DNA of 64,000 bases from Nitrospiraceae bacterium (GTDB lineage Bacteria; Nitrospirota; Nitrospiria; Nitrospirales; Nitrospiraceae), in NCBI GenBank assembly GCA_035623075.1, contig DASPUC010000037.1:1-64000 (forward strand), given 5' to 3'. This document shows, piece by piece, positions 3,088 through 58,372 of the stretch. The number at the start of each line of letters is the position of its first letter. Positions within the stretch are counted from its first letter, which is position 1. A program made the translations under genes and the position numbers. The notes under the pieces were generated by a model. The model was not told where the DNA came from. It worked only from the letters and a program-made list of their open reading frames with translations, and made no database searches.

Positions 3088-4761
3088 GTGATCATCCGTT
3101 TCGCACCCGGTCTTCGGAAGCTTCTGAACTACCGGCGTGAATGGTTCCGGGCTGATTTGGTCGCCGGTGTCTCGGTTGCTGCCGTGGCAGTTCCAACTGC
3201 GATCGCCTATGCGCAATTGATCGGCTTTGAACCGATCGTCGGGCTATATGCGGCGATCCTTCCACTCGTAGCCTATGCGCTGTTCGGGACCTCACGCCAG
3301 CTTATCGTCAACCCCGACGCGGCCACGTGCGCCGTATTTGCCGCCACCGTGCTGCCGCTTGCCGGCGGTGATCCCAATGCCCTCCGGTCGCTCTCCATGG
3401 TACTGGCAGGGTTGACCGGCCTGGTGTGCATCGCGGCAGGACTCTTCCGACTTGGCTTCGTAGCCGACTTCCTTGCGAAGCCGATCCTGGTCGGCTATCT
3501 CAATGGCGTGGCGATCAGCATCTTTCTTGGTCAGATCGGGAAAGTCTTCGGCTTCGCCATGCACTCGCGCGGGATCATCCCACGGCTCATCGAGTTCGCC
3601 GGTAAGCTGCCGCAAACCCATCTGCCAACGCTTGCCGTGGGAGCGACAACGTTCGCGATAATCATGGGAAGCAAACGCCTGGTACCTCGCGCGCCAGCTC
3701 CGTTACTGGCCACAGCGGCAGCCGTCGCACTGGTCTATGGCTTGAGTCTGGAGGCTAGTGATGTGGCGGTTGTAGGTGCATTACCGGCGGGACTGCCAAC
3801 CCTGAGCTGGCCACAATTTGATCCCGAGCTTTTGAAGCCCCTGCTCGGCGGCGCCCTCGGAGTGGCGCTCGTGAGCTTCAGCAGCGGCATGGTGACCGCA
3901 AGGAGTTTTGCCGCCCGGAATCGTTACGACATCGACGTGGATCAGGAATTCATCGCGCTCGGTGCTTGCCAGATCGCCGCCGGTATGTCGCAGGGCTTTG
4001 CCGTGACCGGAGCTGACTCTCGCACTGCGGTAAACGACGCAATGGGCGGCAAAACTCAAGTGGCTGGGCTGATTGCCTCTGCGACGATGGCGGTGGTGCT
4101 CTTTTTCCTGACAGAGCCCTTGCGCTATCTGCCGGTGGCAGCGTTGGGCGCGGTTTTGATCGTCGCCGCCGTCGGACTCTTCGATGTGGCTGCGCTCCGC
4201 AAGATGTGGCGTGTAAACCGATCAGAGTTTGTGCTGGCCCTGTTCACCACGCTTGGCGTCATCTGGCTGGACTTACTGGAAGGCATCCTCCTGGCAGTGG
4301 GATGCGCCTTGCTCCTGCTGATCAAGCGAACGTCGCGACCGCCGGATGCTGTGTTGGGTCGAGTGCCGGGGATGAGAGGATGGCATAACGTGGCCGACCA
4401 TCACGATGCGGTAACTCAACCAGGCCTGATGGTCTACCGATTCAGCGCCGCGATCGTGTTCTTCAATGCGGGGTATTTCAAAAAGCAGGTCTTGGAGCTT
4501 GTCGCTCGCCACCCAGACATTGAGTGGCTCGTTGTGGATGGAAGTACAATCAACGTGGTCGATGTCACCGGTGCCGAAATGCTCGAATCCCTCGCCGAAG
4601 AACTGGAGGCCAAGGACGTTCGTTTCTGCCTTGCGAACGTTCACCGTGACGTGCGCAACACACTCAAACGTGCCGGTACTCTCTCACGCATCAACACCGA
4701 CTTCATCTTCCCGTCACTCAATACCGCGACCGACGCATTCCTCGCACGCACACAAGCGTGA
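3088..4761 (+). CDS. SulP family anion permease with C-terminal STAS domain
   Basis: 557 residues, the normal length for bacterial SulP transporters. The N-terminal 400 residues hold about a dozen hydrophobic segments and the SulP hallmark near the first helices (DLVAGVSVAAVAVPTAIAYAQLIG, interrupted here by other residues in many relatives). A STAS domain follows from about residue 447 to the end, with the VDVTGAEML loop that corresponds to the anti-sigma-antagonist phosphorylation site. SulP proteins carry sulfate, bicarbonate or other anions across the inner membrane; the substrate cannot be read from sequence. The GTG start has GGAG about 11 bases upstream. The gene appears monocistronic. 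Confidence 0.88.
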   Translation: MIIRFAPGLRKLLNYRREWFRADLVAGVSVAAVAVPTAIAYAQLIGFEPIVGLYAAILPLVAYALFGTSRQLIVNPDAATCAVFAATVLPLAGGDPNALRSLSMVLAGLTGLVCIAAGLFRLGFVADFLAKPILVGYLNGVAISIFLGQIGKVFGFAMHSRGIIPRLIEFAGKLPQTHLPTLAVGATTFAIIMGSKRLVPRAPAPLLATAAAVALVYGLSLEASDVAVVGALPAGLPTLSWPQFDPELLKPLLGGALGVALVSFSSGMVTARSFAARNRYDIDVDQEFIALGACQIAAGMSQGFAVTGADSRTAVNDAMGGKTQVAGLIASATMAVVLFFLTEPLRYLPVAALGAVLIVAAVGLFDVAALRKMWRVNRSEFVLALFTTLGVIWLDLLEGILLAVGCALLLLIKRTSRPPDAVLGRVPGMRGWHNVADHHDAVTQPGLMVYRFSAAIVFFNAGYFKKQVLELVARHPDIEWLVVDGSTINVVDVTGAEMLESLAEELEAKDVRFCLANVHRDVRNTLKRAGTLSRINTDFIFPSLNTATDAFLARTQA

Positions 4762-4960
4762 GAAAATTCAAGAAGGCTGATAGAAGAGAGCGGACATCCG
4801 GGAACCGGTTGCGTACTTTTGGTTGTTCGAATTCAGCCCTCGGAGTTCTCGTTGAAGCAGAGCTCCGAACGGGAATAATGAGGCTGCACGAACAACACTA
4901 CCAGATATGTAAAAGAACACCCTGCGGCTCAAGCCGAAAACATGACAGAGCTCATAGATA

Positions 4961-4995
4961 TTTACTTTCACCTTAGGCCAGCCTATATTGGCTGG
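4961..4995 (+). promoter_or_regulatory. candidate sigma70 promoter with operator-like inverted repeat, upstream of the radical SAM/inositol cluster
   Basis: TTTACT (4961-4966) and TATATT (4984-4989) are separated by 17 bases, a good sigma70 arrangement. The -10 box is exactly the spacer of an inverted repeat CCAGCC (4978-4983) / GGCTGG (4990-4995). A protein bound to this repeat would cover the -10 region, as in classic repression. The site lies about 90 bases before the first radical SAM gene. Further upstream are nested short inverted repeats (GTTGTTCG 4822-4829 with CGAACAAC 4889-4896; CGGAG 4841-4845 with CTCCG 4863-4867). This is motif inspection only; chance matches are possible. Confidence 0.4.
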
Positions 4996-5084
4996 GTTGA
5001 GGGGTTGTATCGGTCAGCTGAGGCTCATCTTCGATGTGAAGCAAGCCCCTACCCGATACGGAATTGTCGGCACGAGTAGATTCT

Positions 5085-6086
5085 ATGCATCCATCAATGG
5101 TGATTCGGGGGATGATCGCGCGGCTGGGGATTCGGCCCTATCCCCTCTCCCTTACCTACGAGGTGACATGGCAGTGCAATCTGGCTTGCTCCTATTGCGA
5201 CCGGCATACCCCAATGCCGCAGGAAATGACGCGCGATCAGATAATCAAAGCGTTGGAAGAGTTTCATGCGCTCGGCATGCGACACACCAATCTCGATGGT
5301 GGGGACCCCCTCGTCCATCGACACATCGACGAGATCGTCGAGTGGCTCGTGCAACGGGGCATCACCGTCAGCATGCATACCAACGGAATACTGGTTCCCA
5401 AAAAGATCAACACTGTTCGAAAACTTTCACGAGTGAAGATCAGCTTGGATGGACCACGTGAACCCCATGATGCTATGCGGGGACCGGGAAGTTTTGATCG
5501 GGCTATTACAGGGGCGAAGGCCGCTCAAGCAGTTGGAATCCCCGTAGAGTTTACCTGCATCGTCGGGCGTCACAACGCCGGGACCCTCGATTCACTTATG
5601 GAGATCGCGGCGGACTTAACAATTCCGGTGGTCTTCCAGCCCGCGTTGAACAGTTTATTTCTGGAGACCGCTCGAGACGGATCGGCCTGGCAACTAGACG
5701 CCCAGTCCATTCGAGCAGCGTTCGGACACATCGAGCAAATCAAGCGACGCAGTACCGTGGTGGGGAATGAGTGGTCCAGCCTGCGGCATTTCCGTACGTT
5801 TCCTGAGGATACAACGCCCCCTTGTGCAGCGGGCTGGGTTCTGGCCACAATGGACGCCGAGGGAACGCTATTCCCCTGCGGTCAAGTCAACCGCGCTGAT
5901 CACTCCAACAACGTCGTGCGCCTGGGAGTGGCTCGCGCGTTCGCCGGACTTTCGAGGAAGGGGTGCAGTCAGTGCTGGTGCGCACGCCTGGTTGAAGGGA
6001 ACTACGAGTGGGGAATGCGCATCGATCGCATGCTGCCGCCGCTGATCATGCCACAGTCATCAGGAGGAGAATCGAGAGGCGCGTGA
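5085..6086 (+). CDS. radical SAM protein with C-terminal SPASM/twitch-like cysteines
   Basis: About 333 residues from the ATG at 5085 (a TTG at 5064 and an ATG at 5097 are alternatives). Near the N-terminus CNLACSYC gives the CX3CX2C motif that binds the [4Fe-4S] cluster cleaving S-adenosylmethionine. NLDGGDPL takes the place of the usual GGEP motif, and VKISLDGP is the typical beta-strand of the barrel. The C-terminal part has PCAAGW, a DAEGTLFPCG element and GCSQCWC, fitting an auxiliary iron-sulfur SPASM or twitch domain. Such proteins modify peptides, sugars or small molecules; the substrate is not evident. The stop overlaps the second radical SAM gene (GTGA), so the pair is co-translated. 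Likely first gene of the 5-15.5 kb cluster. Confidence 0.87.
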   Translation: MHPSMVIRGMIARLGIRPYPLSLTYEVTWQCNLACSYCDRHTPMPQEMTRDQIIKALEEFHALGMRHTNLDGGDPLVHRHIDEIVEWLVQRGITVSMHTNGILVPKKINTVRKLSRVKISLDGPREPHDAMRGPGSFDRAITGAKAAQAVGIPVEFTCIVGRHNAGTLDSLMEIAADLTIPVVFQPALNSLFLETARDGSAWQLDAQSIRAAFGHIEQIKRRSTVVGNEWSSLRHFRTFPEDTTPPCAAGWVLATMDAEGTLFPCGQVNRADHSNNVVRLGVARAFAGLSRKGCSQCWCARLVEGNYEWGMRIDRMLPPLIMPQSSGGESRGA

Positions 6087-7039
6087 AACAGTTAACGATG
6101 CCTTCATTGAATCACCGTGCCGATTCTCAACCTATCTCATGGTGGGACTGGTTGCGCTACGGACCATTTTTAGCGCAGCTGGTGGTCACGCGACGATGCA
6201 ATCTCTCCTGTGGCTATTGCTCCGAGTACGACAGCACCTCACAACCCATTCCCATTGCCATCCTCCAGAGCCGTATGGAGAAGTTACGTCAGCTGCGTAC
6301 ATGGGCCATGGCATTAATGGGTGGTGAACCGACGCTGCATCCGGATCTCCTCCAGATCTTCGCAGAAATGCGCCGATTAGGATTCCGCCGCCGCATGATG
6401 ACCACGAATGGCATTCTGCTGACGAAGGAGCTGATCGAAGGGCTAAATACCCAAGGCATGACTGATCTGAACGTCAGTGTCGACGGCGTGAAACGGAACT
6501 CTACAACGATGAAGGTGCTGGAGACGCTGCGATCGAGACTCGAGCTCCTGGCCCAACATGCGCGCTTTCGCGTTGTTCTGAGCGCCGTCATCGGCAGCGC
6601 ACCTCCAGAAGAAGTCCTTCAGGTCGTCGATTTCGCAACCTCGCATGGATTTAGTCCGCGCGTGCTCTTGTTGCATGATGAATCGGGGCAAATCGGACTC
6701 TCTCCCGATCAGTTGGCTCTCTATGCAGAAGTCAAGCGCAGAATTGGCCGGGCCGCGAATGAAGCGGGCAACTATCGCGATCGTTTGATCCACGGAGCAC
6801 AAGCGCCGTTTCGTTGTCGAGCCGGTGCGCGATACCTGTACGTCGATGAATTCGGAATGGTGTGCTGGTGTGCGCAGACCCGCGCCTCGTTCAGGAAGCC
6901 CCTACTGGACTATACCCTGGATGACCTGCGTGAGCAGTTTTACACCGGGAAATCCTGCCAGGCCACATGCAGTGTAGGTTGTGTGAGAACCGTCTCCGCT
7001 TATGACGCCTGGCGCTTGCAAGGGGCGTCGTCGAATTAG
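6083..7039 (+). CDS. second radical SAM protein with SPASM/twitch-like C-terminus
   Basis: 318 residues from GTG at 6083, chosen because AGGAGGAG lies at 6062-6069 and the start overlaps the previous stop as GTGA; ATG 6098 is an alternative. CNLSCGYC supplies the SAM-cleaving cluster, and MALMGGEPTLHPD and TTNGILL are standard radical SAM motifs. The C-terminal section has RCRAGARYLYVDEFG, CWC and CQATCSVGC, enough cysteines for auxiliary clusters. It is distinct in sequence from its neighbour, so this is not a recent tandem duplication. Two coupled radical SAM enzymes beside an inositol cluster suggest two radical steps on one product (inference). A 114-base gap follows. Confidence 0.87.
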   Translation: MKQLTMPSLNHRADSQPISWWDWLRYGPFLAQLVVTRRCNLSCGYCSEYDSTSQPIPIAILQSRMEKLRQLRTWAMALMGGEPTLHPDLLQIFAEMRRLGFRRRMMTTNGILLTKELIEGLNTQGMTDLNVSVDGVKRNSTTMKVLETLRSRLELLAQHARFRVVLSAVIGSAPPEEVLQVVDFATSHGFSPRVLLLHDESGQIGLSPDQLALYAEVKRRIGRAANEAGNYRDRLIHGAQAPFRCRAGARYLYVDEFGMVCWCAQTRASFRKPLLDYTLDDLREQFYTGKSCQATCSVGCVRTVSAYDAWRLQGASSN

Positions 7040-7153
7040 TCGACCACATGGAAGGGGATGGTGTAGCTCGGTTGTTCAGTTCAGTCTAAATAGACGACGA
7101 GACAAACCCAGCTATCCCTTCGATCGTAAGCTAACCCGCAACCGTAACAGACG

Positions 7154-8164
7154 ATGAGAAAATGCTATCAAGTTGGCGTGCTTTTGGCCGGAGTTGGGGT
7201 GATCGGATGGATTCTCTGGACGGTTGGGCTCGCAACGGTCGCGGCGAACCTCTCCGTCATTGGAGCTCGGCTGCTTGCCTTCATCGCACTCTATCTGTTT
7301 GCTCAACTTGCCTTCATGGTCGCCTGGTGGGTGGTGATGGACCGCGATGCCCAGGCCTACGGTTTTCTGAGGCTGTTCGGTGTCTACCTGGCGGGCGATA
7401 CCGTCAATTATCTCGTTCCCTCGGGTAATCTTGGAGGGGAGCCAGTCAAGGCCTACCTGTTAAGAGACACAGTGGGATTCGGGCAGGCGCTGACTTCGAT
7501 CGTCATTCACAAGCACGCGGAACTGATTGCCGAATGGGTCTTGCTGGTTGGAGGCCTGACGGTTTGCCTTGCATACATAGAGATGCCGAGTGTCGTGACG
7601 CTTGCAAACACGGTGATTGTCGGCGGACTCGGAGTGAGCCTCATTATCATGACGTGGGCCCTGAGAGCGGGCACGCTTTCCCCGATCCTGCGTCGGTTAT
7701 CTGATTGGAAACCGCTGGCCTCCTACCTGCAAACCCATCAGCCTGCTGCGGACGCGCTGGCTACGCGACTTCGTACGTTTTACAAGGAGCAATGGCGGTG
7801 GTTTCTTGTTTCGACAGGCTGGTGTCTTATCGGATGGTGCGGCGGACTTCTAGAGACCTACTTGGTCCTTCACATCCTCTCCCCGGCGGAGGGGTGGACC
7901 ACAGCTGTGGCGGTCGAAACCATGGTCCTGGCTTTTAACATTGTCTTTGGGTTTGTTCCGGCACGCCTAGGCAGCGCCGAGGGAGTGAGGGTCGGTGTGT
8001 TTGTGTTACTCGGGCTTCCGGCTGCGCAAGGGGTTGCATACGGAGCTGTTCGCCGTGCTCGGGAATTGGCCTGGATTTTGCCAGGCTTTGTCATCTTGTG
8101 GAAGCGACACTTGAGGTGGTTCACTCAAGAAGATGCTGAGACGCTCCCAGCGCGGCTCGCCTGA
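7154..8164 (+). CDS. lysylphosphatidylglycerol-synthase-type transmembrane protein (UPF0104/AglD2-like)
   Basis: 336 residues with eight or so hydrophobic segments and no soluble catalytic domain. NYLVPSGNLGGEPVKAYLLRD is the signature loop of the LPG_synthase_TM family, and LGSAEGVRVGVFVLLGLP is the matching C-terminal loop. Members of this family act as flippases or membrane partners of lipid and glycolipid biosynthesis enzymes; many have no known substrate. Its place between the radical SAM pair and the nucleotidyltransferase/CDP-alcohol transferase genes suggests it handles a lipid-linked or exported product. It starts at ATG 7154 with a weak GA-rich ribosome site and may be in the same transcript as both sides. 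Confidence 0.82.
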   Translation: MRKCYQVGVLLAGVGVIGWILWTVGLATVAANLSVIGARLLAFIALYLFAQLAFMVAWWVVMDRDAQAYGFLRLFGVYLAGDTVNYLVPSGNLGGEPVKAYLLRDTVGFGQALTSIVIHKHAELIAEWVLLVGGLTVCLAYIEMPSVVTLANTVIVGGLGVSLIIMTWALRAGTLSPILRRLSDWKPLASYLQTHQPAADALATRLRTFYKEQWRWFLVSTGWCLIGWCGGLLETYLVLHILSPAEGWTTAVAVETMVLAFNIVFGFVPARLGSAEGVRVGVFVLLGLPAAQGVAYGAVRRARELAWILPGFVILWKRHLRWFTQEDAETLPARLA

Positions 8165-8213
8165 CACGTGGTCAGCCCACTGTCGTGCTGCTTGCTGAGT
8201 GAGATTGAGCGAA

Positions 8214-8939
8214 ATGAAGCCAGGCCTATTGGATGAAATAGCTCGACCGCGTTTGGATCGATCGTCGATCACGGCGATCCTTTTCGATTTCGGCGGAACA
8301 TTGGATGCGGACGGTGTGGCCTGGAAGGAACGGTTTCTTCGCTTGTATCGGGAGGAAGGAGTGGACGTTTCGAGTGAGCGGTTTGCTCGAGCTTTCTATA
8401 AAGCCGACGATGCACTCGTAGGTAGGATCCCGTCCACGCTATCTCTCCAAGACACCGTTCGCCGCCTCGCACAGGATGTGGCGCGAGAGCTTGAGGTGAG
8501 CGATCAGGCCACGGTGGCACGAGTTGCCAATCGGTTCACGGCCGAAGCCCTCGAGCGCCTCACGAAGAATCTGTGCGTGTTGCAGGATCTCAGCCGTCGC
8601 TATCGCCTCGGGATCGTTTCGAATTTCTATGGAAACCTCTCAGCCGTCTGCCGTGAAGCCGGTTTGGATCCGTTCTTCCAGACCATCATCGATTCTGAGG
8701 TGGTAGGGCATCTCAAACCGAGTCCTGAAATCTTTTATACGGCATTGAAGGATCTCCAGGCCGAACCGTGGCAGGCTGTATTCGTGGGGGATTCTCTCCA
8801 GCGCGACATGGCGGGAGCCAAAGCAGTCGGGATAGCCCATGTCTGGCTCACTTCGCAAGCGTCTCAGCAAGGAGAAGCCTGTTGTCCCAACGATCCGGTT
8901 GCGCATGGGTTGGAAGACGTGAGAACGTTGTTCGTATGA
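8214..8939 (+). CDS. HAD-superfamily hydrolase (subfamily IA type)
   Basis: 241 residues from ATG 8214; GTG 8199 would add five residues and has a poorer ribosome site. LFDFGGTLD holds the nucleophile Asp25, GIVSNFYG is motif II, HLKPSPEIF carries the motif III lysine, and FVGDSLQRDMAGAK is motif IV. The second acid of the usual DxD is Gly27, a variant common in this subfamily that may change proton transfer. Probable role: dephosphorylating a phosphorylated intermediate of the cluster; no inositol monophosphatase-family gene is seen in the window. Its TGA overlaps the next ATG (ATGA), starting a run of coupled genes to 15528. Confidence 0.83.
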   Translation: MKPGLLDEIARPRLDRSSITAILFDFGGTLDADGVAWKERFLRLYREEGVDVSSERFARAFYKADDALVGRIPSTLSLQDTVRRLAQDVARELEVSDQATVARVANRFTAEALERLTKNLCVLQDLSRRYRLGIVSNFYGNLSAVCREAGLDPFFQTIIDSEVVGHLKPSPEIFYTALKDLQAEPWQAVFVGDSLQRDMAGAKAVGIAHVWLTSQASQQGEACCPNDPVAHGLEDVRTLFV

Positions 8940-9679
8940 CGCACAAGGGAATCATACGGGGGGGCATCATCGCTGCAGGCGAAGGGTCCCGTCTCCGGCA
9001 GGCCGGATATACGGAGCCGAAACCTCTCGTGCCGATAGCGGGCACTCCGCTCATCGAACGAGTGATCGGCAATTTTCTGGCGGCCGGGATTGAATCGTCG
9101 GTGATCATTTTCAATGAGGAAGGGGGGCGAGAGTGCGAGCGCTGGGTCCGTTCTCGATTCCCCGATGTAGACATCGAGGTCATTATCAAGACCACGGCAT
9201 CATCCCTTGAAAGTTTTCTCATGGTGGCCGGGCGAATCAAAGAGGGGCCTGCGCTCATTTCAACCGTAGACGCGTGGTGTTCACCGGAAGATTTCAAAGG
9301 CTTTGTCGAAGCGGCTGCGCGCCGACCACCGGAGTCGACGGTGCTGGCCGTCACACCGTTCGTGGCAGATGAGCGTCCGCTCTGGGCCCTGTTGGATCAG
9401 TCGGGTCGCGTGAAGAGTCTCGGAAATTACACCGGCACGATGGTAACGGCAGGCATGTACCTTGTGCCAGAGCGAGTGAGGCAGCTCTCAGTACCGAAAG
9501 AGCTCAACAGACTGAGGGATTTCTTGGGTTGGTTGGTCACGATCGGCGAACCGGTTTTTGGTATTCCGATTGAAACAGTGGTGGATGTGGACCGGGGTGA
9601 GGATGTGCCGTTGGCCGAGGCTTTGACGAGCACATTCCGGTTGAATCAGGCAGATCGAGCGTCTGAGGAGGTTACGTGA
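8936..9679 (+). CDS. sugar-phosphate/NDP-type nucleotidyltransferase, candidate CTP:inositol-phosphate cytidylyltransferase
   Basis: 247 residues from ATG 8936, preferred over an in-frame extension lying inside the HAD gene. IIAAGEGSRLR (about residues 11-21) is the GxGxR nucleotide-binding signature, followed by EPKPLVPIAGTPLIERV, and STVDAW near residue 104 can supply the metal-binding aspartate. The family joins NTP to a phosphorylated sugar or polyol, releasing pyrophosphate. Co-location with an inositol phosphate synthase and a CDP-alcohol transferase makes CTP plus inositol phosphate to CDP-inositol the simplest proposal. That is inference from context; UDP- or GDP-sugar chemistry is not excluded. 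It overlaps both neighbours by 4 bases. Confidence 0.85.
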   Translation: MTHKGIIRGGIIAAGEGSRLRQAGYTEPKPLVPIAGTPLIERVIGNFLAAGIESSVIIFNEEGGRECERWVRSRFPDVDIEVIIKTTASSLESFLMVAGRIKEGPALISTVDAWCSPEDFKGFVEAAARRPPESTVLAVTPFVADERPLWALLDQSGRVKSLGNYTGTMVTAGMYLVPERVRQLSVPKELNRLRDFLGWLVTIGEPVFGIPIETVVDVDRGEDVPLAEALTSTFRLNQADRASEEVT

Positions 9680-10518
9680 ACGAACGGGAATGTTGGGGGA
9701 TTTTCCGAGAACGGGCGCATTCGCCGGGACGGGAATTTGACGACGCCGAGATTCTTCGGCTAACCGGCAAGCATCTGGATGCAATGGGATTCCACGTCAG
9801 CCTCAAGACAACGGACGAGATTCCCGCAAGAGCTTCCGGACCTCCTCCGGCGATGTTCATGATGTGCGAGCAGATCCGAATTCTGGAAGAGCTTCAGCGA
9901 TGGGAACAACGAGGGGCCCGCATCGTCAACACCCCAGTGTCGGTGCTCAATACGTACCGGGAGCGGATGGTGCTGCTGCTGGAGCAGGCACGTGTCTCTT
10001 CGCCTGCGAGCCGGATCATACCGACGAATGCACCAAGGATCACGTCCGCCGATCCGGTCTGGGTGAAACGCGGAGATGTGCACAGTACGCAAGAAGAGGA
10101 CGTTTCGTTCGCTGCCAGTGGAGTTGAAGCAGAACAAGCGTTGCGGCGCCTGGCTCTACGCGGGGTTCCATCAGCCGTGGTACAAGACCACATTGCAGGC
10201 GATCTTCTCAAGTTCTACGGCATCGGTCGGCCTGATCTGAAACCGAGAGACGGCACATGGTTTCGATGGTTCTATCACAAAGATCAACGGGTCGCGGGAC
10301 ACTCGTTCAATCCGAAAATGCTAGTCGACCTTGTCCACCGCGCGGCAGCGGCTCTCGGCCTTGAAATCTATGGAGGAGACGCGATCGTGAGTGATGGAGG
10401 TGCCATCACCCTGATCGATTTGAATGCCTGGCCGAGCTTTGCGCTCTATCGTGACGAGGCGGCGAAACATATCGCAGCCTATCTGGCTGAGCGGTTTCTG
10501 GGAGAACGGGCCGCATGA
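9676..10518 (+). CDS. ATP-grasp-fold enzyme
   Basis: 280 residues from a GTG that overlaps the previous stop (GTGA), with GAGGAGG just upstream. WVKRGDVHS resembles the lysine-bearing strand of ATP-grasp domains, VVQDHIAGDLLKFYG the acidic/hydrophobic linker, and IDLNAWPSFALYRDEAAKHI the terminal metal-binding D-x-N motif also seen in RimK-like ligases and in inositol-phosphate kinases of this fold. ATP-grasp enzymes join a carboxylate to an amine or thiol through an acyl phosphate, or phosphorylate small molecules. Here it could amidate an amino-inositol made by the next two genes, or act as a kinase; sequence alone cannot choose. The fold call is firmer than the function. Confidence 0.7.
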   Translation: MNERECWGIFRERAHSPGREFDDAEILRLTGKHLDAMGFHVSLKTTDEIPARASGPPPAMFMMCEQIRILEELQRWEQRGARIVNTPVSVLNTYRERMVLLLEQARVSSPASRIIPTNAPRITSADPVWVKRGDVHSTQEEDVSFAASGVEAEQALRRLALRGVPSAVVQDHIAGDLLKFYGIGRPDLKPRDGTWFRWFYHKDQRVAGHSFNPKMLVDLVHRAAAALGLEIYGGDAIVSDGGAITLIDLNAWPSFALYRDEAAKHIAAYLAERFLGERAA

Positions 10519-11840
10519 AACGTCACAATCCAGGTCCGCGCTCCATGCGCATCGTGGAACAGGAACAGCAACACATGTCTCCTGGCTTGCAGTCGATCGC
10601 TCTCTACTCCGGTTTGGCAATGGCGCATGGCACCGGCTGTACGCTGATCGATGAAGACGGCAAGCGCTATCTCGATTTTGTCGCCGGTATCGGAGTGGGC
10701 AGTGTCGGTCACTGCCATCCCCACTATGTGGAGGCCTTGAAACAACAAGGCGAGCGTCTGACGTTCAGCAGCTTTACCACTGAAGTCCGCGCAAAATTTC
10801 TGACCCTCCTCGCGTCAGTCACCCCGAAGGGGCTCAGCCGAATTCAAATGTTTTCGGGTGGCGCGGAGACGGTAGAGGCGGCCTTCCGTCTCGCAAAATC
10901 TGCCACCCGCAAGTTCGAGTTCATCGGTTTCTGGGGCGGCTTTCACGGAAAGACGGGCGGGGTCTTGGGATTACTCGGAGATGACTTTAAGAAGGAACTC
11001 GGACCGTTCATGCCAGGTCTCTATTCAGCACCCTATGGACACTGTTATCGCTGTCCGTGGAAATTGACGTTTCCGAGCTGCGGGCTGGCCTGCGCCGAGC
11101 ATTTACGCCAGGTCATTCGGTACCAGACGCAAGGTGAGATTGCCGCGATCATCGTGGAACCGGTTCAAGGAACAGCGGGGAACGTTGTGCCTCCTCCGGG
11201 CTTTCTCCAAGCGGTCCAGGACATTGCCAAAGAACATGGTGCGTTGCTCATCGCCGACGAAATGCAAACCGGATTCGGTCGAACCGGATCGATGTGGGGA
11301 TGCGACCATGAAAGACTGGTTCCCGATGTCATGACGGTCGGGAAAGGCATCGCGGGGGGATTTCCGTTGTCCGCGCTGATTTCAACTGATGAGCTGACCA
11401 GCCGGAAGCCGTTCGCCAACCCGAGCGGCAGCTCGTCGAGTTACGGAGGGAACCCGCTGGCTTCAGCAGCAGGTCTGGCCACATTGGAAATTATCATCAA
11501 GGACGACCTCGTGAAGAATGCCGAGCGTGTCGGGAACGTGATGATGGCAAGGCTCCGTTCCATGCAAGATCGTTATCGATGCATCGGCGATGTCCGGGGA
11601 AGAGGCTTGATGCTCGGCCTCGAGTTAGTCCGGAACCGGGAGTCGAAAGAACCGCTCCCGAAGGACGTGACGCGGGCTTTATTCCAGGAATGTTTGCGCC
11701 GTGGACTGGTCGCCATGTGTTACTCACCCATCATACGAATCAGTCCACCCCTGGTCATCAGCGAAGACCAGGCCTTGCAAGGCCTCGAGCTCTTAGACGA
11801 GGCCTTGGCCGCAGTGACGCGGGATTATCAGCTCGAATAG
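10515..11840 (+). CDS. class III pyridoxal-phosphate aminotransferase
   Basis: 441 residues, full length for the family. LIADEMQTGFGRTG contains the cofactor-binding aspartate, TVGKGIAGG the Schiff-base lysine (Lys277), and SSSYGGNPLASAAGLATL the phosphate-binding region. A cysteine-rich stretch (CYRCPWKLTFPSCGLAC, near residues 180-195) is characteristic of one subgroup of this family and may bind metal. Class III enzymes transfer amino groups to aldehydes or ketones; some relatives are ammonia or phospho-lyases. Next to a Gfo/Idh/MocA oxidoreductase it fits oxidation of an inositol hydroxyl followed by transamination to an amino-inositol (inference). The start overlaps the ATP-grasp stop (ATGA). 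Confidence 0.88.
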   Translation: MKRHNPGPRSMRIVEQEQQHMSPGLQSIALYSGLAMAHGTGCTLIDEDGKRYLDFVAGIGVGSVGHCHPHYVEALKQQGERLTFSSFTTEVRAKFLTLLASVTPKGLSRIQMFSGGAETVEAAFRLAKSATRKFEFIGFWGGFHGKTGGVLGLLGDDFKKELGPFMPGLYSAPYGHCYRCPWKLTFPSCGLACAEHLRQVIRYQTQGEIAAIIVEPVQGTAGNVVPPPGFLQAVQDIAKEHGALLIADEMQTGFGRTGSMWGCDHERLVPDVMTVGKGIAGGFPLSALISTDELTSRKPFANPSGSSSSYGGNPLASAAGLATLEIIIKDDLVKNAERVGNVMMARLRSMQDRYRCIGDVRGRGLMLGLELVRNRESKEPLPKDVTRALFQECLRRGLVAMCYSPIIRISPPLVISEDQALQGLELLDEALAAVTRDYQLE

Positions 11841-11849
11841 GCGGGAGCA

Positions 11850-12914
11850 ATGCTACGCGGAGCACTCATCGGATTCGGCAACGTGGCGGCCAACGGCCAT
11901 GTGCCTGGATGGTTGGCGTGCCAGGATGTTGAGATTGTAGCGGTGTCGGATACAAACAAAGCGAGGCAGTCCGAAGCCGAACGTCTGCTCCCCTACGCAC
12001 GCTGGTACGACTCTGGTGAGATGTTGCTGGCCGAGGAGCGGCCTGATTTCGTGGATATCTGCACGCCTCCATCCGGCCACGCTGACCTCATTCGAGCCGC
12101 TCTGCAGCGAGGATTGCATGTGCTGTGCGAGAAACCGTTGGTGACATGCCCTGACGATCTTGTTGAACTCTCAGTGTTGGCCGGAGCCGAAAGAAAAGTT
12201 CTCTATACGGTGCACAATTGGCACCACGCTCCGAATATCGTCTTCGTCCGTGAGCTTCTCCAACGACGTGAAATCGGATCCATCACCCGATGCATCTGGC
12301 AAACCCTTCGTATCAAGCCGGCGGCAGCCGTCACCGGCCAGCCGGGCAATTGGCGTCTCGATCCACAAGTCGCAGGGGGAGGAGTGCTTGTCGACCATGG
12401 ATGGCATGCCTGTTATGTCATGCTCAGCTGGTTGAATCAGAGGCCGACTGCGATCAGTGCCAGGCTGGAGACCAGACGTCACGTTGACTCTCCTCTCGAA
12501 GACACGGCAACGGTCCACATTCAGTTTCCGCGCGCAACCGCGGAACTGTTTTTGACATGGGCGGCCGACGATAGACGCAATACGGTCGAGATCTCCGGTG
12601 ACCGCGGCACAATACGTCTTGAGAATAATTCCGTTGTGCTCTCGCAGCCCAACTCACATGAAGAACCGCGTCGTTGGACTTTGGCGTCGAGCCTGGCCGA
12701 AGGCTCCCACCATCCGGAGTGGTTCGGTGGCGTTGTCAACGGATTTCTTGCGGAGATGGCGGAGGCAACGACGAGAGGTCACAATTTCTCCGAAGCGGCT
12801 CTCTGTGTCCAGATGCTGGCCTTGGCTCAATTATCCAACCGACAAGACGGCGCCTGGCTTCCGATCCCGGACTCAATCTCAGTTGAGAAGATGGACACGG
12901 GAGTGCCGCGGTGA
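11850..12914 (+). CDS. Gfo/Idh/MocA family NAD(P)-dependent oxidoreductase
   Basis: 354 residues. IGFGNVAANGHVPGW is the N-terminal dinucleotide-binding loop, VDICTPPSGHADLI and CEKPLVTCP (the EKP motif) mark the family, and GGGVLVDHGWHACYVM carries the conserved histidine region of the C-terminal domain. The family includes inositol 2-dehydrogenases and sugar dehydrogenases that oxidise ring or chain hydroxyls. Given the inositol-phosphate synthase three genes on and the adjacent aminotransferase, an inositol or inositol-phosphate derivative is a reasonable substrate. It starts 9 bases after the aminotransferase stop and ends in a GTGA overlap with the CDP-alcohol transferase. Confidence 0.88.
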   Translation: MLRGALIGFGNVAANGHVPGWLACQDVEIVAVSDTNKARQSEAERLLPYARWYDSGEMLLAEERPDFVDICTPPSGHADLIRAALQRGLHVLCEKPLVTCPDDLVELSVLAGAERKVLYTVHNWHHAPNIVFVRELLQRREIGSITRCIWQTLRIKPAAAVTGQPGNWRLDPQVAGGGVLVDHGWHACYVMLSWLNQRPTAISARLETRRHVDSPLEDTATVHIQFPRATAELFLTWAADDRRNTVEISGDRGTIRLENNSVVLSQPNSHEEPRRWTLASSLAEGSHHPEWFGGVVNGFLAEMAEATTRGHNFSEAALCVQMLALAQLSNRQDGAWLPIPDSISVEKMDTGVPR

Positions 12915-14173
12915 CTCTTCTCTCAAATGAGACCGCAGTGTCCGATTATCCTGTGCCAGTCAGGCGTAATGGTCCAACGCTCATTGTGGTTTTTCCACAA
13001 GAACAGGATCACGAGAAGCCCATTTCGCCCATGACGGTTGTGTTGGGCTTATCCCTTCTCCGACGAGTTATATTGACGGCCCAGCGAGCAGGATTCTCGA
13101 CTCCCTTCGTGGCAACCTCCGACCCTTCTGGGATCAAACAGATTCTGGACGGAACTTCTGCCATCGCAATATCGCCATCCGACGTGAGCACTCACCTCCC
13201 TCAAGGACGAATCGTGCTGTTGACCTCGAACGTACTTCCGACTCAACAGTTCTTGCGACAGCTGTTGGATCAACCGCTTCAACCCGATCGAGTCTCTGTG
13301 TGTGGCAACGTAGCAGCATGGGTTGAACCGTCGAGGTCTTTAGATTGGTCCTCGGTCCTGCAGCATGTTTTGCGAGGTCACGGCTTGGGGGGAGCGTTTG
13401 TCGGTGCGAACGCGACCATCGTTGAAGAAAAAGTCGACGGGTTGTTTATCCTCAAGACCATGAAGGATCAACGGGTAGCTGAGCGTCATCTTCTGCGAGG
13501 GCTGATCAAGGATACAGAAGCATTTATGTCTCGACATTTCGAAAGACCAATGTCGCTGGCGATCACGCGACGACTCGTGTCACGTGCCATCACTCCCAAC
13601 GCGATGACCACAGTCAGTGTCGGCATTGGACTCTTGGGATCCCCGTTTTTTCTCTCTTCGTACTGGGGCTATCAGCTCGTCGGCGCGCTTCTCTTTCTTG
13701 CGCACTCCATCCTGGATGGATGCGATGGAGAACTGGCGCGATTGCGTTTTGAAGAGTCGCGCTGGGGCGGCATTCTGGATTTCTGGGGCGACAACGTCGT
13801 GCACGTCGCGGTGTTTGCCTGTATGGGAATCGGATGGAGTCTGAGCGTCGGCGAAGCCTGGCCGCTCTGTTTGGGTGTTCTCGCGATACTGGGAACAATC
13901 TGTTCGGCCGGATTCGTCTATTGGCACACCATGCGGGGTGAAAAGTCGACCGGCCCGCTCTTTACGTCCGTCGTTCGATCGACAACCTCCAGGCTGTCTC
14001 ATTTGATGGATTCACTGGGGCGGCGAGATTTCATTTATCTGGTCGTCATACTTTCGGCTTTTGGAAAGGCTTCGTGGTTTCTGGCCCTCACCGCGATCGG
14101 CTCTCCGATCTACTTCATCATCTTGGTGTGGCTTGCCCGCACTGAAGGCCGTAACAGAGGAGAACAATCATGA
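12911..14173 (+). CDS. CDP-alcohol phosphatidyltransferase with degenerate nucleotidyltransferase-like N-terminal domain
   Basis: 420 residues. The C-terminal half is hydrophobic with about six membrane segments and a perfect CDP-alcohol motif: D269, D272-G, A276-R277, G286, D290, D294 (DxxDGxxARx8Gx3Dx3D). These enzymes transfer a phospho-alcohol from a CDP carrier to a second alcohol. Residues 1 to about 195 look like a decayed nucleotidyltransferase fold (VVLGLSLLRRVILTAQRAGF, then IVLLTSNVLPTQQ) lacking the GxGxR loop. In archaeal di-myo-inositol phosphate synthesis one protein carries an active cytidylyltransferase fused to this transferase; here the active copy may be the separate gene at 8936. 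GTG start overlapping the preceding stop, ATGA into the next gene. Confidence 0.87.
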   Translation: MTLLSNETAVSDYPVPVRRNGPTLIVVFPQEQDHEKPISPMTVVLGLSLLRRVILTAQRAGFSTPFVATSDPSGIKQILDGTSAIAISPSDVSTHLPQGRIVLLTSNVLPTQQFLRQLLDQPLQPDRVSVCGNVAAWVEPSRSLDWSSVLQHVLRGHGLGGAFVGANATIVEEKVDGLFILKTMKDQRVAERHLLRGLIKDTEAFMSRHFERPMSLAITRRLVSRAITPNAMTTVSVGIGLLGSPFFLSSYWGYQLVGALLFLAHSILDGCDGELARLRFEESRWGGILDFWGDNVVHVAVFACMGIGWSLSVGEAWPLCLGVLAILGTICSAGFVYWHTMRGEKSTGPLFTSVVRSTTSRLSHLMDSLGRRDFIYLVVILSAFGKASWFLALTAIGSPIYFIILVWLARTEGRNRGEQS

Positions 14174-15528
14174 GTGAAAACAGTTCGCGTTATCCTGAAT
14201 TGGCCAGGACGATCGCTCTGGCGCAGGGAAGGCTCGGGGTCCTCCTGCCAGGTCTGGGCGCCGTGGCAACTACCCTGATTGCCGGCACGCAATTGATCAA
14301 CAAGGGTCTGGCAAAACCCTACGGATCGTTGACCCAGCTCCAGCGGATACGGCTCGGCAAACGCACCGCTCCTCGATTTGTTCCGATCAAGAAGGTGGTG
14401 CCGCTCGCCGAACTATCCGATCTGGTCTTCGGCGGCTGGGACATCTTTCCGGACGATGCCTACCAGACGGCCAGAGCCGCAGGCGTCGTGCCGCACGATC
14501 AGCTGGAACATGTGAAGCATGAACTCGAAGCCGTCAAGCCTTGGCCCGGCGCCTTCGAGCAGCGGTATGTCCGAAACCTGCGGGGGACCCACATCAAAAC
14601 CGCAACGACAAAAATGGATCTAGCTGAAGCAGTGATGCGGGATATCGAGAACTTTGTCGCCGCAAACGGAATCCGCCGGTCGGTCATGATCTGGTGCGGA
14701 TCGACTGAAGTGTACTCCCAGCCCGGCTCCGTGCATCAAACCCTGGAAGCGTTCGAGCAGGGTCTTAAGGAGAATGCGCCGGAGATTTCCCCTTCGATGA
14801 TTTATGCGTACGCGGCTCTGTCCCTTGGTGTGCCCTTTGCCAATGGAGCTCCGAATCTTTCGGCTGATATTCCGGCACTCGTGCAACTGGCGGCCCAACG
14901 ACGGGCACCGATTGCCGGGAGCGATTTCAAAACAGGACAGACCTTGATGAAGACGGTTGTTGCGCCAGGCCTGAAAGCCAGGATGTTGGGGCTCCGCGGC
15001 TGGTTTTCCACGAATATCCTCGGCAACCGGGATGGCGAAGTGCTCGATGATGCCGGCTCCTTCCGCGCAAAAGAGGTCAGTAAGAGCGGCGTATTGGATG
15101 CGATCCTGCAACCGGACCTCTATCCGGACCTCTATGGAAACTATTACCACAAGGTGCGTATCGAGTTTTACCCACCGCGCGGTGATGCCAAAGAAGGATG
15201 GGATAATATCGACATCGTTGGTTGGCTGGGGCAGCCGATGCAGATCAAGATCGATTTTCTCTGCCGCGATTCTATCCTCGCCGCCCCGGTCGTGTTGGAT
15301 TTGGTGCTCTTTCTGGACCTTGCGCAACGGGCCAGACTCTCCGGGATTCAGGAGTGGTTATCATTTTACTTTAAGTCACCGATGTCTCGGCCTGATTTAA
15401 AGCCCGAGCATGATCTCTTTGTTCAGCACCTGAAGTTGACCAATACGCTCCGGATCCTCGTCGGTGAGGAGGTGTTGGACCACTCCGGGCTGGATTACTA
15501 CGAGGGCGAGATGTCTCACGGCCACTGA
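14170..15528 (+). CDS. ino1: myo-inositol-1-phosphate synthase
   Basis: 452 residues, near the usual size of bacterial and archaeal members with long C-termini. LLPGLGAVATTLIAG is the NAD-binding N-terminus, NGAPNLSADIPALVQLA and GSDFKTGQT (Lys254, a catalytic lysine) are core motifs, and STNILGNRDGEVL matches the family NxLGNxDG element. The enzyme converts glucose 6-phosphate to inositol phosphate using bound NAD as an internal hydride carrier and is the committed step to inositol compounds. It is the last intact gene of the cluster, overlapping the CDP-alcohol transferase stop by ATGA, and it anchors the reading that the cluster makes an inositol product. Confidence 0.93.
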   Translation: MSENSSRYPELARTIALAQGRLGVLLPGLGAVATTLIAGTQLINKGLAKPYGSLTQLQRIRLGKRTAPRFVPIKKVVPLAELSDLVFGGWDIFPDDAYQTARAAGVVPHDQLEHVKHELEAVKPWPGAFEQRYVRNLRGTHIKTATTKMDLAEAVMRDIENFVAANGIRRSVMIWCGSTEVYSQPGSVHQTLEAFEQGLKENAPEISPSMIYAYAALSLGVPFANGAPNLSADIPALVQLAAQRRAPIAGSDFKTGQTLMKTVVAPGLKARMLGLRGWFSTNILGNRDGEVLDDAGSFRAKEVSKSGVLDAILQPDLYPDLYGNYYHKVRIEFYPPRGDAKEGWDNIDIVGWLGQPMQIKIDFLCRDSILAAPVVLDLVLFLDLAQRARLSGIQEWLSFYFKSPMSRPDLKPEHDLFVQHLKLTNTLRILVGEEVLDHSGLDYYEGEMSHGH

Positions 15529-16247: not shown

Positions 16248-16859
16248 CTACGGTTCAATTTTGGTAATTTTTGACCCTTGCAATCCCAACCCCGCCATCA
16301 GCCCCTGTTGGCTGAAAATGAAGGCATAGACGTCGCTCCGCCCTGTTGTCGTCGTGAGGCTCTTTCCCGCGCCTTTATCCATGACCACGATGCTGGGACC
16401 GACCCCGACCTCCCATCCCGAGCTATTGTCCAAGTACTCCAACGCCTTCTCGTTCATGAAGAACATGACATAGCCGAACGATTGGATGCCGGCTTGAAGG
16501 CCATACGACGCAGCGACATTGCTATAGTACCCGACCGTTGTCCCATCTTTTTTGAGGGCACCCTTCCCGTAGTGAGCCCCAATAATGAAGCCACCCTTCA
16601 CGATGCTCGGAAAGATAAGGATACCCTTGGCCTCCTTGCGGAACATCTCCGCCTCCGGTGTATCTTCGAGCAGTTTCTTAAGTCCCGCATCCGCCTCGCG
16701 ATCGATCTGCGCGGCCTCAGCGGACTGCCCCGCAATGGCTATCGAGGGATGAAGCGAGACACTCATTGACAGAGAAAGCAGCAGGATGATCAACGTACCG
16801 GACCTCACGGATCGTTCTCGCTCGGAAGCCTCCTTATCTGCTTGGTTCCACCTGCCCAT
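16248..16859 (-). CDS. SYLF-domain (Ysc84-type) exported lipid-binding protein, copy 1
   Basis: 203 residues from ATG 16859; the frame is open further upstream to 16934, but those codons precede a normal signal region. A hydrophobic export segment (GTLIILLLSLSMSVSL) ends near SIAIAGQS. The SYLF domain follows: AKGILIFPSIVKGGFIIGAHYG, GYYSNVAASYGLQAG, VGPSIVVMDKGAGKSLT and AFIFSQQGLMAGLGLQG. SYLF proteins bind phosphoinositide-type lipids in eukaryotes; the bacterial role is unclear, with envelope localisation likely. The domain is about 85% like the copy at 24216 by eye, so they are paralogues about 8 kb apart on the same strand. Confidence 0.85.
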   Translation of the reverse strand: MGRWNQADKEASERERSVRSGTLIILLLSLSMSVSLHPSIAIAGQSAEAAQIDREADAGLKKLLEDTPEAEMFRKEAKGILIFPSIVKGGFIIGAHYGKGALKKDGTTVGYYSNVAASYGLQAGIQSFGYVMFFMNEKALEYLDNSSGWEVGVGPSIVVMDKGAGKSLTTTTGRSDVYAFIFSQQGLMAGLGLQGSKITKIEP

Positions 16860-16952
16860 TGTGCCGCCCGTCACTTCATGATGCTCCTGTTTCTTTCCAC
16901 TCTTGATTCCTCTTCCTTCCGCAATTTTACGCACTAATGACTTGCATGTCGA

Positions 16953-24215: not shown

Positions 24216-24776
24216 CTATGGATTAATCTTTGTGATCTTTGAACCCTGCAATCCCAGGCCAGCCATCAGCCCTTCCTGGCTGAAGATAAAGGCATACACG
24301 TCGCTGCGGCCCGTCGTCGTTGTGAGACTCTTCCCCGCGCCTTTATCCATCACCACAATGCTGGGACCGACGCCGACCTCCCATCCCTCACTGTTATCCA
24401 GATACTCCAGCGACTTGTCGTTCATAAAGAACAGGATGTAGCCGAACGATTGCACGCCGGCCTGCAAACCGTAGGACGCAGCCACCGTACTGTAATACCC
24501 GGCCGTCGATCCTCCTCTTTTCAGCGCTCCCTTCCCGTAGTGGGCTCCGATGATAAAGCCGCCCTTTACGATACTCGGGAATATCAGAATCCCTTTGGCC
24601 TCCTTCCGGAACGTCTCCGCTTCTGGCGTATCCTCGAGCAATTTCTTGAGTGCTGCATCAGCGTCGCGTTCAATCTGCGCCGCCTCCGGCGACTGCCCTG
24701 CCGACACGATCGACCCCGGCAGTGATACACCCAAGACCGAACAAAGGAGCATGGCCATCGGCGCTTTGTATCTCAT
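24216..24776 (-). CDS. SYLF-domain (Ysc84-type) exported protein, copy 2
   Basis: 186 residues with a compact signal peptide (MAMLLCSVLGVSLPGSIVSAGQS). The SYLF core is nearly the same as copy 1 (16248): AKGILIFPSIVKGGFIIGAHYG, VAASYGLQAGVQSFGYILFF, EVGVGPSIVVMDKGAGKSLT and SQEGLMAGLGLQGSKITKINP. The N-terminal helix (AAQIERDADAALKKLLEDTPEAETF) is shared too. Full-length conservation suggests both copies are still functional. It leads the run 24216, 23663, 23065 on the minus strand. Confidence 0.86.
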   Translation of the reverse strand: MRYKAPMAMLLCSVLGVSLPGSIVSAGQSPEAAQIERDADAALKKLLEDTPEAETFRKEAKGILIFPSIVKGGFIIGAHYGKGALKRGGSTAGYYSTVAASYGLQAGVQSFGYILFFMNDKSLEYLDNSEGWEVGVGPSIVVMDKGAGKSLTTTTGRSDVYAFIFSQEGLMAGLGLQGSKITKINP

Positions 24777-57419: not shown

Positions 57420-57875
57420 ATGATTGCGCAGATGCATTTGAAAGGGTTGATGTTCGACCCGTACAATAACGCTTATATTGTCATCCTGCGCGATGAGGAT
57501 CGTTCCGACATCCTTCCGATTTGGGTAGGAAAATCGGAAGCCGGCTCGATCAGCCTGGCTCTGGAAAACGTCGCCCCGCCCCGACCAATGACCCATGACT
57601 TCATGAAGTCGATTCTCGACGCCTATGATGCGAAGATCATCAGCGTCGTCATCACAGACCTTTCCGAGAACACGTACTTCGCCAAGATCCACATGATGTA
57701 CGAAGACTCAGAATATACCGTGGACTCTCGCCCCAGTGACGCCATTGCTCTTGCGCTTCGCTGCAACGCGCCGATTTTTGCGAGCGAGACAGTGATTCGA
57801 AAGCAGAACTCGGAAGAGCTTGAACAGTGGCTTGAGAACCTGAAACCGGAAGATTTCGGAAAGCTGGATTCCTGA
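57420..57875 (+). CDS. bifunctional-nuclease-domain (BFN, DUF151) protein, first of tandem pair
   Basis: 151 residues. YIVILRDEDRSDILPIWVGKSEAGSISLALENV and RPMTHDFMKSIL are the DUF151 signature, continuing with TYFAKIHM and VDSRPSDAIALALRCNAPIFASE. Plant members of the family are nucleases; bacterial ones are common but of unclear activity. The TGA overlaps the next ATG (TGATG), so the two BFN genes are coupled. They are followed by rplM and rpsI with a 30-base gap, suggesting a shared transcript. Confidence 0.85.
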   Translation: MIAQMHLKGLMFDPYNNAYIVILRDEDRSDILPIWVGKSEAGSISLALENVAPPRPMTHDFMKSILDAYDAKIISVVITDLSENTYFAKIHMMYEDSEYTVDSRPSDAIALALRCNAPIFASETVIRKQNSEELEQWLENLKPEDFGKLDS

Positions 57876-58372
57876 TGAGCGACGCATCGTCTTCCCTAAA
57901 TCACGATTTGATTGAGTTCAAGGTCGATCGCGTCGTCGACGAAACGGCGACAGACACGAGGATCGTGGTGTTGACGCGTGCAGGTTCTCCGACCGATACG
58001 TTCCCGATCTGGGTCGGAGCAGCAGAAGGCTCCGCGATCAAGCTGGCGATGGATACGATGGTCACTCCGCGGCCGATGAGTCATGACCTGATCAAGAGTT
58101 TTATCGAACATTTAGGAGTTGTTCTGCGACGCGTGGTGATCACTGACGTCAAAAGCAGTACCTACTATGCGACGGTGTATCTCGAAAGCAAGGGTGTCGA
58201 GCGGACGGTCGATGCAAGGCCGAGTGATGCCATCTCGCTGGCATTGCGCGTTCATTGTCCTATTTACATTACGCAGGACGTGCTGACACGTCGCAGCAGC
58301 AGCAACCTCGATGCGTGGCTCGCAAAGATGGAGTCGAAGAACCTCGGAACGCAAGAAGTCCAAGAAACCTGA
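57875..58372 (+). CDS. bifunctional-nuclease-domain (BFN, DUF151) protein, second of tandem pair
   Basis: 165 residues. It keeps the same pattern as the first copy: DTFPIWVGAAEGSAIKLAMDTM, RPMSHDLIKSFIEHLG, TYYATVYLES, VDARPSDAISLALRVHCPIYI. Identity to the first copy is about 40% by eye, so this is an old duplication. Its N-terminal 20 residues (LIEFKVDRVVDETATDTR) and C-terminal tail differ. Transcribed into rplM. Confidence 0.85.
   Translation: MSDASSSLNHDLIEFKVDRVVDETATDTRIVVLTRAGSPTDTFPIWVGAAEGSAIKLAMDTMVTPRPMSHDLIKSFIEHLGVVLRRVVITDVKSSTYYATVYLESKGVERTVDARPSDAISLALRVHCPIYITQDVLTRRSSSNLDAWLAKMESKNLGTQEVQET

Follow-up and report, generated by a model that had tools for sequence, protein, structure and literature searches.

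Two Twitch-type radical SAM proteins encoded at the head of a candidate inositol-lipid gene run in a Nitrospiraceae bacterium

Inositol lipids are rare in bacteria, and Bacteroides vulgatus and Prevotella are described as carrying an 'alternative' inositol-lipid cluster in an account that leaves the enzyme functions unconfirmed (PMC9246714). By the definition given there, the cluster combines an NTP transferase, a CDP-alcohol phosphotransferase and a HAD-family hydrolase with a myo-inositol-1-phosphate synthase (MIPS), often together with an LPG_synthase_TM gene, and a lysylphosphatidylglycerol synthase is encoded nearby (PMC9246714). A term search found ATP-grasp, radical SAM and aminotransferase to be absent from the main text of that paper.

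Three single enzymes are relevant to the radical SAM proteins of the present locus. BtrN (PDB 4m7t) is a Twitch radical SAM 2-deoxy-scyllo-inosamine dehydrogenase. BlsE (PDB 7vob) is a cytosylglucuronate decarboxylase with a small-molecule substrate, and SkfB (PDB 6efn) is a Twitch sactipeptide maturase. The Twitch domain is defined by a CX9-15GX4C motif around a β-hairpin and by two cysteines after the next helix (PMC6231123).

In the window, that is, the whole stretch of 64,000 nucleotides analysed here, two radical SAM genes, rSAM1 and rSAM2, head a run of ten same-strand genes that extends from position 5085 to position 15528 (Table 1). On its gene content, the run is an extended form of the alternative inositol-lipid cluster, with a predicted lipid product. 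The new element is a Twitch radical SAM pair joined to a lipid pathway that is known but unconfirmed.

Table 1. Features of the ten-gene run in the window and of a separate gene set in the same genome
Feature	Position	Strand	Details
rSAM1	5085..6086	+	333 aa; Twitch-type radical SAM protein; PF04055 80.6 bits
Candidate ribosome-binding site of rSAM2	6062..6069	+	AGGAGGAG, 13 nt upstream of GTG
rSAM2	6083..7039	+	318 aa; second, divergent Twitch-type radical SAM protein; GTG start; PF04055 61.7 bits
LPG_synthase_TM / HpnL-like membrane protein, probable lipid flippase	7154..8164	+	PF03706 100.6 bits; TIGR03476 102.2 bits, below cut-off 195.65
HAD-family hydrolase	8199..8939	+	PF00702; 58% identity to L067
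NTP transferase, candidate inositol-phosphate cytidylyltransferase	8936..9679	+	PF12804/PF00483; AAGEGSRL...KPL; 62% identity to L067
ATP-grasp-like protein (tentative)	9676..10518	+	280 aa; no Pfam/NCBIfam match at E 0.01
Class III aminotransferase	10515..11840	+	PF00202 348.4 bits; 79% identity to L067
Gfo/Idh/MocA oxidoreductase	11850..12914	+	PF01408/PF22725; 60% identity to L067
CDP-alcohol phosphotransferase	12911..14173	+	PF01066; DX2DGX2AR...GX3DX3D at residue 269
MIPS	14170..15528	+	PF07994 316.6 bits, PF01658 102.6 bits; 78% identity to L067
Separate set, L069 (G000:C49)	4970-13521		PEP mutase fused to NTP transferase, PhnW-like aminotransferase, NTP transferase, CDP-alcohol phosphotransferase, LPG_synthase_TM gene

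Two radical SAM proteins of the Twitch class

The two genes lie at the coordinates given for a coupled radical SAM pair in an earlier note on this DNA, and chance is excluded for the radical SAM identity because the PF04055 scores of both products exceed the cut-off of 29.5 bits. Both proteins also contain the CX3CX2C motif of the superfamily, which begins at residue 31 of rSAM1 and residue 39 of rSAM2. The additional C-terminal cysteines that had been noticed are residues 247, 265, 294, 297 and 299 of rSAM1 and residues 245, 261, 263, 292, 296 and 300 of rSAM2. The genes overlap in a GTGA sequence, as reported before, in which the TGA stop codon of rSAM1 (6084–6086) is entered by the GTG start codon of rSAM2 (6083–6085). 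The strong ribosome-binding site that had been assigned to rSAM2 is present, but its spacing to GTG is long, and the octamer occurs four times in the window against a chance expectation of 2.43, so that it constitutes weak evidence on its own. The sequences of the two proteins differ clearly (19% identity in the alignment), as had been stated. The claim that they catalyze different reactions fits this identity and their separate places in a phylogenetic tree, and the reactions themselves are proposed below as predictions. A recent tandem duplication as the origin of the pair was rejected on the same two observations, with the placement of rSAM2 unsure on its very long branch.

Both rSAM1 and rSAM2 are Twitch-type proteins with one auxiliary cluster rather than full SPASM proteins. 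This assignment is made because a β-hairpin and helices follow the barrel in both predicted structures, a CX12GX4C motif is present and the second SPASM half is absent (definition in PMC6231123). In rSAM1, C247-x12-G260-x4-C265 is followed by C294, C297 and C299. In rSAM2, C245-x12-G258-x4-C263 is followed by C292, C296 and C300, a part that is assigned by sequence since the C-terminus has pLDDT values below 50. The full SPASM pattern (CX9-15GX4C-gap-CX2CX5CX3C-gap-C, with seven cysteines and two clusters) lacks its second half in both proteins, and PF13186 is absent from their Pfam matches at E 0.01. The predicted structure of rSAM1 has a pLDDT of 82.8 and a pTM of 0.83, and that of rSAM2 has a pLDDT of 72.9, with its last 26 residues below 50. 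The 18/29-residue spacing of the cysteines was considered as a hallmark of the pair and rejected as a group feature, given that it is found in 24 of the 34 compared sequences.

A subfamily assignment with an HMM set, as the earlier note had advised, was attempted with NCBIfam and reached no named family. At E 0.01, 74 models match rSAM1 and 66 match rSAM2, and none of the best 25 of each attains its cut-off. The top models are HpnH (89.5 bits against a cut-off of 225) and MftC (88.5 against 265) for rSAM1 and tetraether synthase Tes (68.7 against 450) and prokaryotic viperin (49.5 against 180) for rSAM2. A viperin-like defence role was also rejected; the PADLOC pVip matches of both proteins, from a library without a curated cut-off, are confined to the barrel region.

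Among solved folds, rSAM1 is closest to BlsE (Z 26.0, rmsd 3.1, 284 aligned residues) and SkfB (Z 25.6, rmsd 3.4, 270 residues), and rSAM2 is closest to SkfB (Z 20.3, 3.5, 260), SuiB (Z 20.2, 4.7, 270) and BlsE (Z 20.1, 3.5, 276). The fold alone leaves the substrate unsettled because each top set ties within 1 Z and mixes small-molecule and peptide enzymes. BlsE also ranks first among the PDB sequence matches of rSAM1 (58 bits), with SkfB close behind, although the identity of BlsE to rSAM1 is 19% and its model TIGR04466 gives 61.7 bits against a cut-off of 400. Tes structures are on top of the PDB sequence matches of rSAM2, and the Twitch dehydrogenase SpeY is a weak match (24 bits; fold Z 13.0). 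BtrN shares the barrel, the Twitch domain and a cyclitol-related context with the pair, and the number of cysteines in both proteins would suffice for a fully ligated auxiliary cluster. Its fold scores are only 15.7 for rSAM1 and 15.3 for rSAM2, however, and no phmmer match was obtained at E 0.01. BtrN would be the nearest functional analogue by context, with a moderate structural score, and the dehydrogenase analogy is loose because BtrN ranks well below the top fold matches.

The ten-gene run and its relatives

Six of the nine junctions in the run are overlaps of a few nucleotides (4 nt each when the ATG at 8936 is taken as the start of the NTP transferase, which was analysed from 8933, one codon upstream), and the remaining gaps measure 114, 34 and 9 nt. 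The widest gap, 114 nt, separates rSAM2 from the flippase gene, and the pair could consequently be a separate unit. On the plus strand from 7039 to 7154, no terminator-like site is found among those listed, in promoter and terminator scans that operate at chance level, and no shift in base composition coincides with the pair.

The run contains the gene content of the alternative cluster in the definition of PMC9246714, with an NTP transferase, a CDP-alcohol phosphotransferase and a HAD-family hydrolase near MIPS. It differs in gene order and by the addition of the two radical SAM proteins, the class III aminotransferase and the Gfo/Idh enzyme. The CDP-alcohol phosphotransferase of the window also has an additional N-terminal part, which lacks a nucleotidyltransferase motif, and the CDP-inositol phosphotransferase model NF041135 matches its C-terminal part only, at 86.7 bits against a cut-off of 580.

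The seven genes from the HAD-family hydrolase to MIPS are syntenic in genome G037, a member of the same order and another family, with 52–79% identity. Neither a radical SAM gene nor a flippase gene adjoins this core in G037, which makes the radical SAM pair an optional addition. The ATP-grasp-like gene is present in only 2 of the 395 genomes of the phylum sample, namely this genome and G037. The ATP-grasp identity of its product is tentative; in a search of the PDB with a two-sequence profile, the ATP-grasp protein 7drm was matched at E 0.0032 and an inositol-tetrakisphosphate 1-kinase at E 0.19. A search of the plasmid collection with the same protein retrieved four records, all from Bacteroidales. 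In all four, the ATP-grasp-like gene lies between the NTP transferase and CDP-alcohol phosphotransferase genes with the HAD gene close by, so that the protein adjoins the alternative cluster there as in the window. MIPS is present in three of the four fetched stretches (52–56% identity to the window MIPS) and an LPG_synthase_TM protein in two; no match to rSAM1 or rSAM2 was found in any of the four. A function as cyclitol kinase or as ligase in the alternative inositol-lipid pathway is possible for the ATP-grasp-like protein. In these Bacteroidales records (L110, L111, L112 and L113), the ATP-grasp-like genes are located near 12001–12831.

Distribution of rSAM1 and rSAM2

The sole rSAM1 ortholog found in a scan of genome contigs, which relies on short conserved peptides and may miss distant orthologs, is encoded in L032, a Gemmatimonadetes metagenome-assembled genome (56% identity). 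The L032 protein keeps CX3CX2C and all five C-terminal cysteines at matching positions. C158, the remaining one of the nine cysteines in rSAM1, has a counterpart at the same alignment spot in L032. The neighbours of the L032 gene encode a methyltransferase, a SPASM-type radical SAM protein, which is not an rSAM2 ortholog, and a CDP-alcohol phosphotransferase; a flippase gene of the polysaccharide type lies between those of rSAM1 and the CDP-alcohol phosphotransferase. The best model of this phosphotransferase is archaetidylinositol phosphate synthase (53.1 bits against a cut-off of 180). The L032 gene lies outside an inositol cluster of the same kind because its genome gave no ATP-grasp homolog, in a sample without a positive control, and a weak MIPS match only (21.8 bits).

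At E 1e-30, rSAM1 matches 7 of the 395 genomes of the phylum sample, including this one, and the other six proteins have 26–33% identity. At E 1e-14, rSAM2 matches 25 of the 395 genomes, including this one; the other 24 are at 28–35% identity, and no relative above 35% was found in the sample. Among 64 genomes around that of L032, the L032 genome alone has an rSAM1 match at 1e-30. Viral contigs contain no relative of either protein, and plasmid records contain no rSAM1 relative at 1e-20. A 34-sequence tree groups rSAM1 with its L032 ortholog (100/100) and leaves rSAM2 alone. Of the 36 non-self full-length rSAM1 relatives, 33 were taken for comparison (L091 and L094 were omitted), with the L032 ortholog added separately, and alignments A2 and A3 consisted of 32 and 29 rows, including the proteins of the window.

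Six more distant rSAM1 relatives (26–31% identity across the aligned portion) have different gene neighbourhoods, and one of the six (L039) shows an NTP-transferase match of limited length (38% across 50 aa). A cluster role for full-length relatives elsewhere was rejected, as eight neighbourhoods gave zero matches to the non-radical-SAM genes of the window at E 1e-6. A conserved radical SAM gene recurs across several genomes of the phylum (L096–L103, at ∼7000–9800), with similar neighbours that appear glycosyltransferase-like and lipoprotein-like by translation.

Predicted role of the pair

The two proteins are proposed, with moderate confidence that is evenly poised, to be different Twitch enzymes whose substrate is a small molecule produced by their run and which would tailor the cyclitol head group, or the lipid, of an inositol or aminocyclitol phospholipid. 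Substrate, reactions, order of steps and lipid product are predicted here from gene order, overlaps, families, motifs and the Twitch class, which are read from the sequence. The position of the pair at the head of such a run makes a small-molecule substrate probable. The proposal is also favoured by the second occurrence of rSAM1 near a CDP-alcohol phosphotransferase and a flippase, in the phylum of L032. In the predicted pathway, MIPS would supply inositol phosphate, and the Gfo/Idh enzyme and the aminotransferase would carry out oxidation and amination of the ring or of a side group. The presence of these two enzymes suggests an amino or oxidized cyclitol. Ring amination is a poor fit to class III aminotransferases, whose usual substrates are aldehydes or omega-amino groups. 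Hydrogen abstraction by one or both radical SAM proteins, on the cyclitol itself or on a CDP- or lipid-bound version of it, may lead to dehydrogenation, epimerization or deoxygenation, and the Twitch cluster may accept or donate the electron in the way put forward for BtrN. The NTP transferase would convert the head group into a CDP derivative, the CDP-alcohol phosphotransferase would transfer it to the lipid and the LPG_synthase_TM protein would flip the lipid.

The absence of a precursor peptide gene beside the pair, noted earlier, agrees with the codon usage learned from 30 ORFs of the window. Small ORFs in the gaps 4758–5084 and 7002–7157 score −0.068 to −0.362 bits per codon, and these precursor candidates were rejected on their uniformly negative scores. 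True 45-codon segments average 0.203 (sd 0.122, n = 251) and wrong frames −0.151 (sd 0.153, n = 1255); the test is coarse, with rSAM1 and rSAM2 themselves at only 0.054 and 0.070. Modification of a ribosomal peptide with a missed precursor would accord with the peptide maturases SkfB and SuiB among the top fold matches and with a 45-codon ATG ORF (4942–5079) that ends 5 nt upstream of rSAM1, but this ORF resembles the wrong frames at −0.215 bits per codon. Moreover, the models place the start of the first barrel strand at residue 22 or 30, which leaves too little N-terminal sequence for a peptide-binding domain, and the gaps flanking the rSAM1 ortholog in L032 are just 27 and 6 nt. A small molecule is favoured over a peptide because of these tight gaps, the lack of a coding-like gap ORF and of an N-terminal extension, and the inositol-lipid genes downstream; a peptide substrate is unlikely, and the missed-precursor explanation in particular is very improbable. 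The small-molecule substrate preferred in the earlier note is retained, and the ten-gene run and the Twitch class had escaped that interpretation, whose AGGAGGAG argument is weak.

Two further explanations are about equal to each other in likelihood, each improbable but more likely than a peptide substrate. In the first, the target of the radical SAM proteins would be the lipid portion (an isoprenoid or acyl chain) instead of the cyclitol, in the manner of HpnH or Tes. The top NCBIfam models, the Tes structures that head the PDB sequence matches of rSAM2 and the L032 gene set, in which rSAM1 accompanies a flippase and a CDP-alcohol phosphotransferase without the inositol core, are in line with such a role, and this lack of the core also counts against head-group tailoring. 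The HpnH and Tes scores nevertheless fall far below their cut-offs and mainly cover the barrel, and the Tes fold (Z 16–18) ranks well under BlsE and SkfB. Alternatively, the pair may form an independent operon that serves cofactor or protein maturation and, as a bystander, happens to lie upstream of the lipid cluster. The shared strand, the lack of a listed terminator-like site in the 7039–7154 interval and the proximity of rSAM1 to a CDP-alcohol phosphotransferase in a second phylum argue against a bystander; the G037 core without the pair, the 114-nt gap and the rarity of rSAM1 and rSAM2 in the sampled genomes argue for one. The G037 core and the gap likewise weigh against tailoring, as do the lack of a close rSAM2 relative and the position of SkfB, which ties with BlsE in fold score and is near BlsE in the sequence matches of rSAM1.

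For the proposed tailoring of a lipid, the furthest-reaching form is a radical-SAM-tailored (amino)cyclitol phospholipid, in which the two Twitch enzymes, the aminotransferase and the Gfo/Idh enzyme would remodel the inositol head group carried by a membrane lipid. This form is tentative and leans towards doubtful. In the literature searched, no paper links radical SAM enzymes to inositol lipids or reports such head-group chemistry or substrate class. If correct, the proposal would provide a new lipid head group as well as two new Twitch enzymes whose substrate class is predicted, and it would give a role to an ATP-grasp-like protein that has no family name and travels with the alternative inositol-lipid cluster.

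The same genome contains a separate 2-aminoethylphosphonate set (L069 in Table 1), which suggests a phosphonolipid of the same design as the window run. Both loci combine head-group enzymes with an NTP transferase, a CDP-alcohol phosphotransferase and an LPG_synthase_TM gene. The L069 set differs in that a phosphonate head group is indicated, the aminotransferase is of class V and no radical SAM match occurs in the 16 kb examined.

Elsewhere in the window, two similar secreted proteins are encoded on the minus strand ∼8 kb apart (16248–16934 and 24216–24776), and we take them to be YSC84/SYLF-like from their appearance. Two similar ORFs that are presumably bifunctional-nuclease-like lie side by side at 57420–58372.
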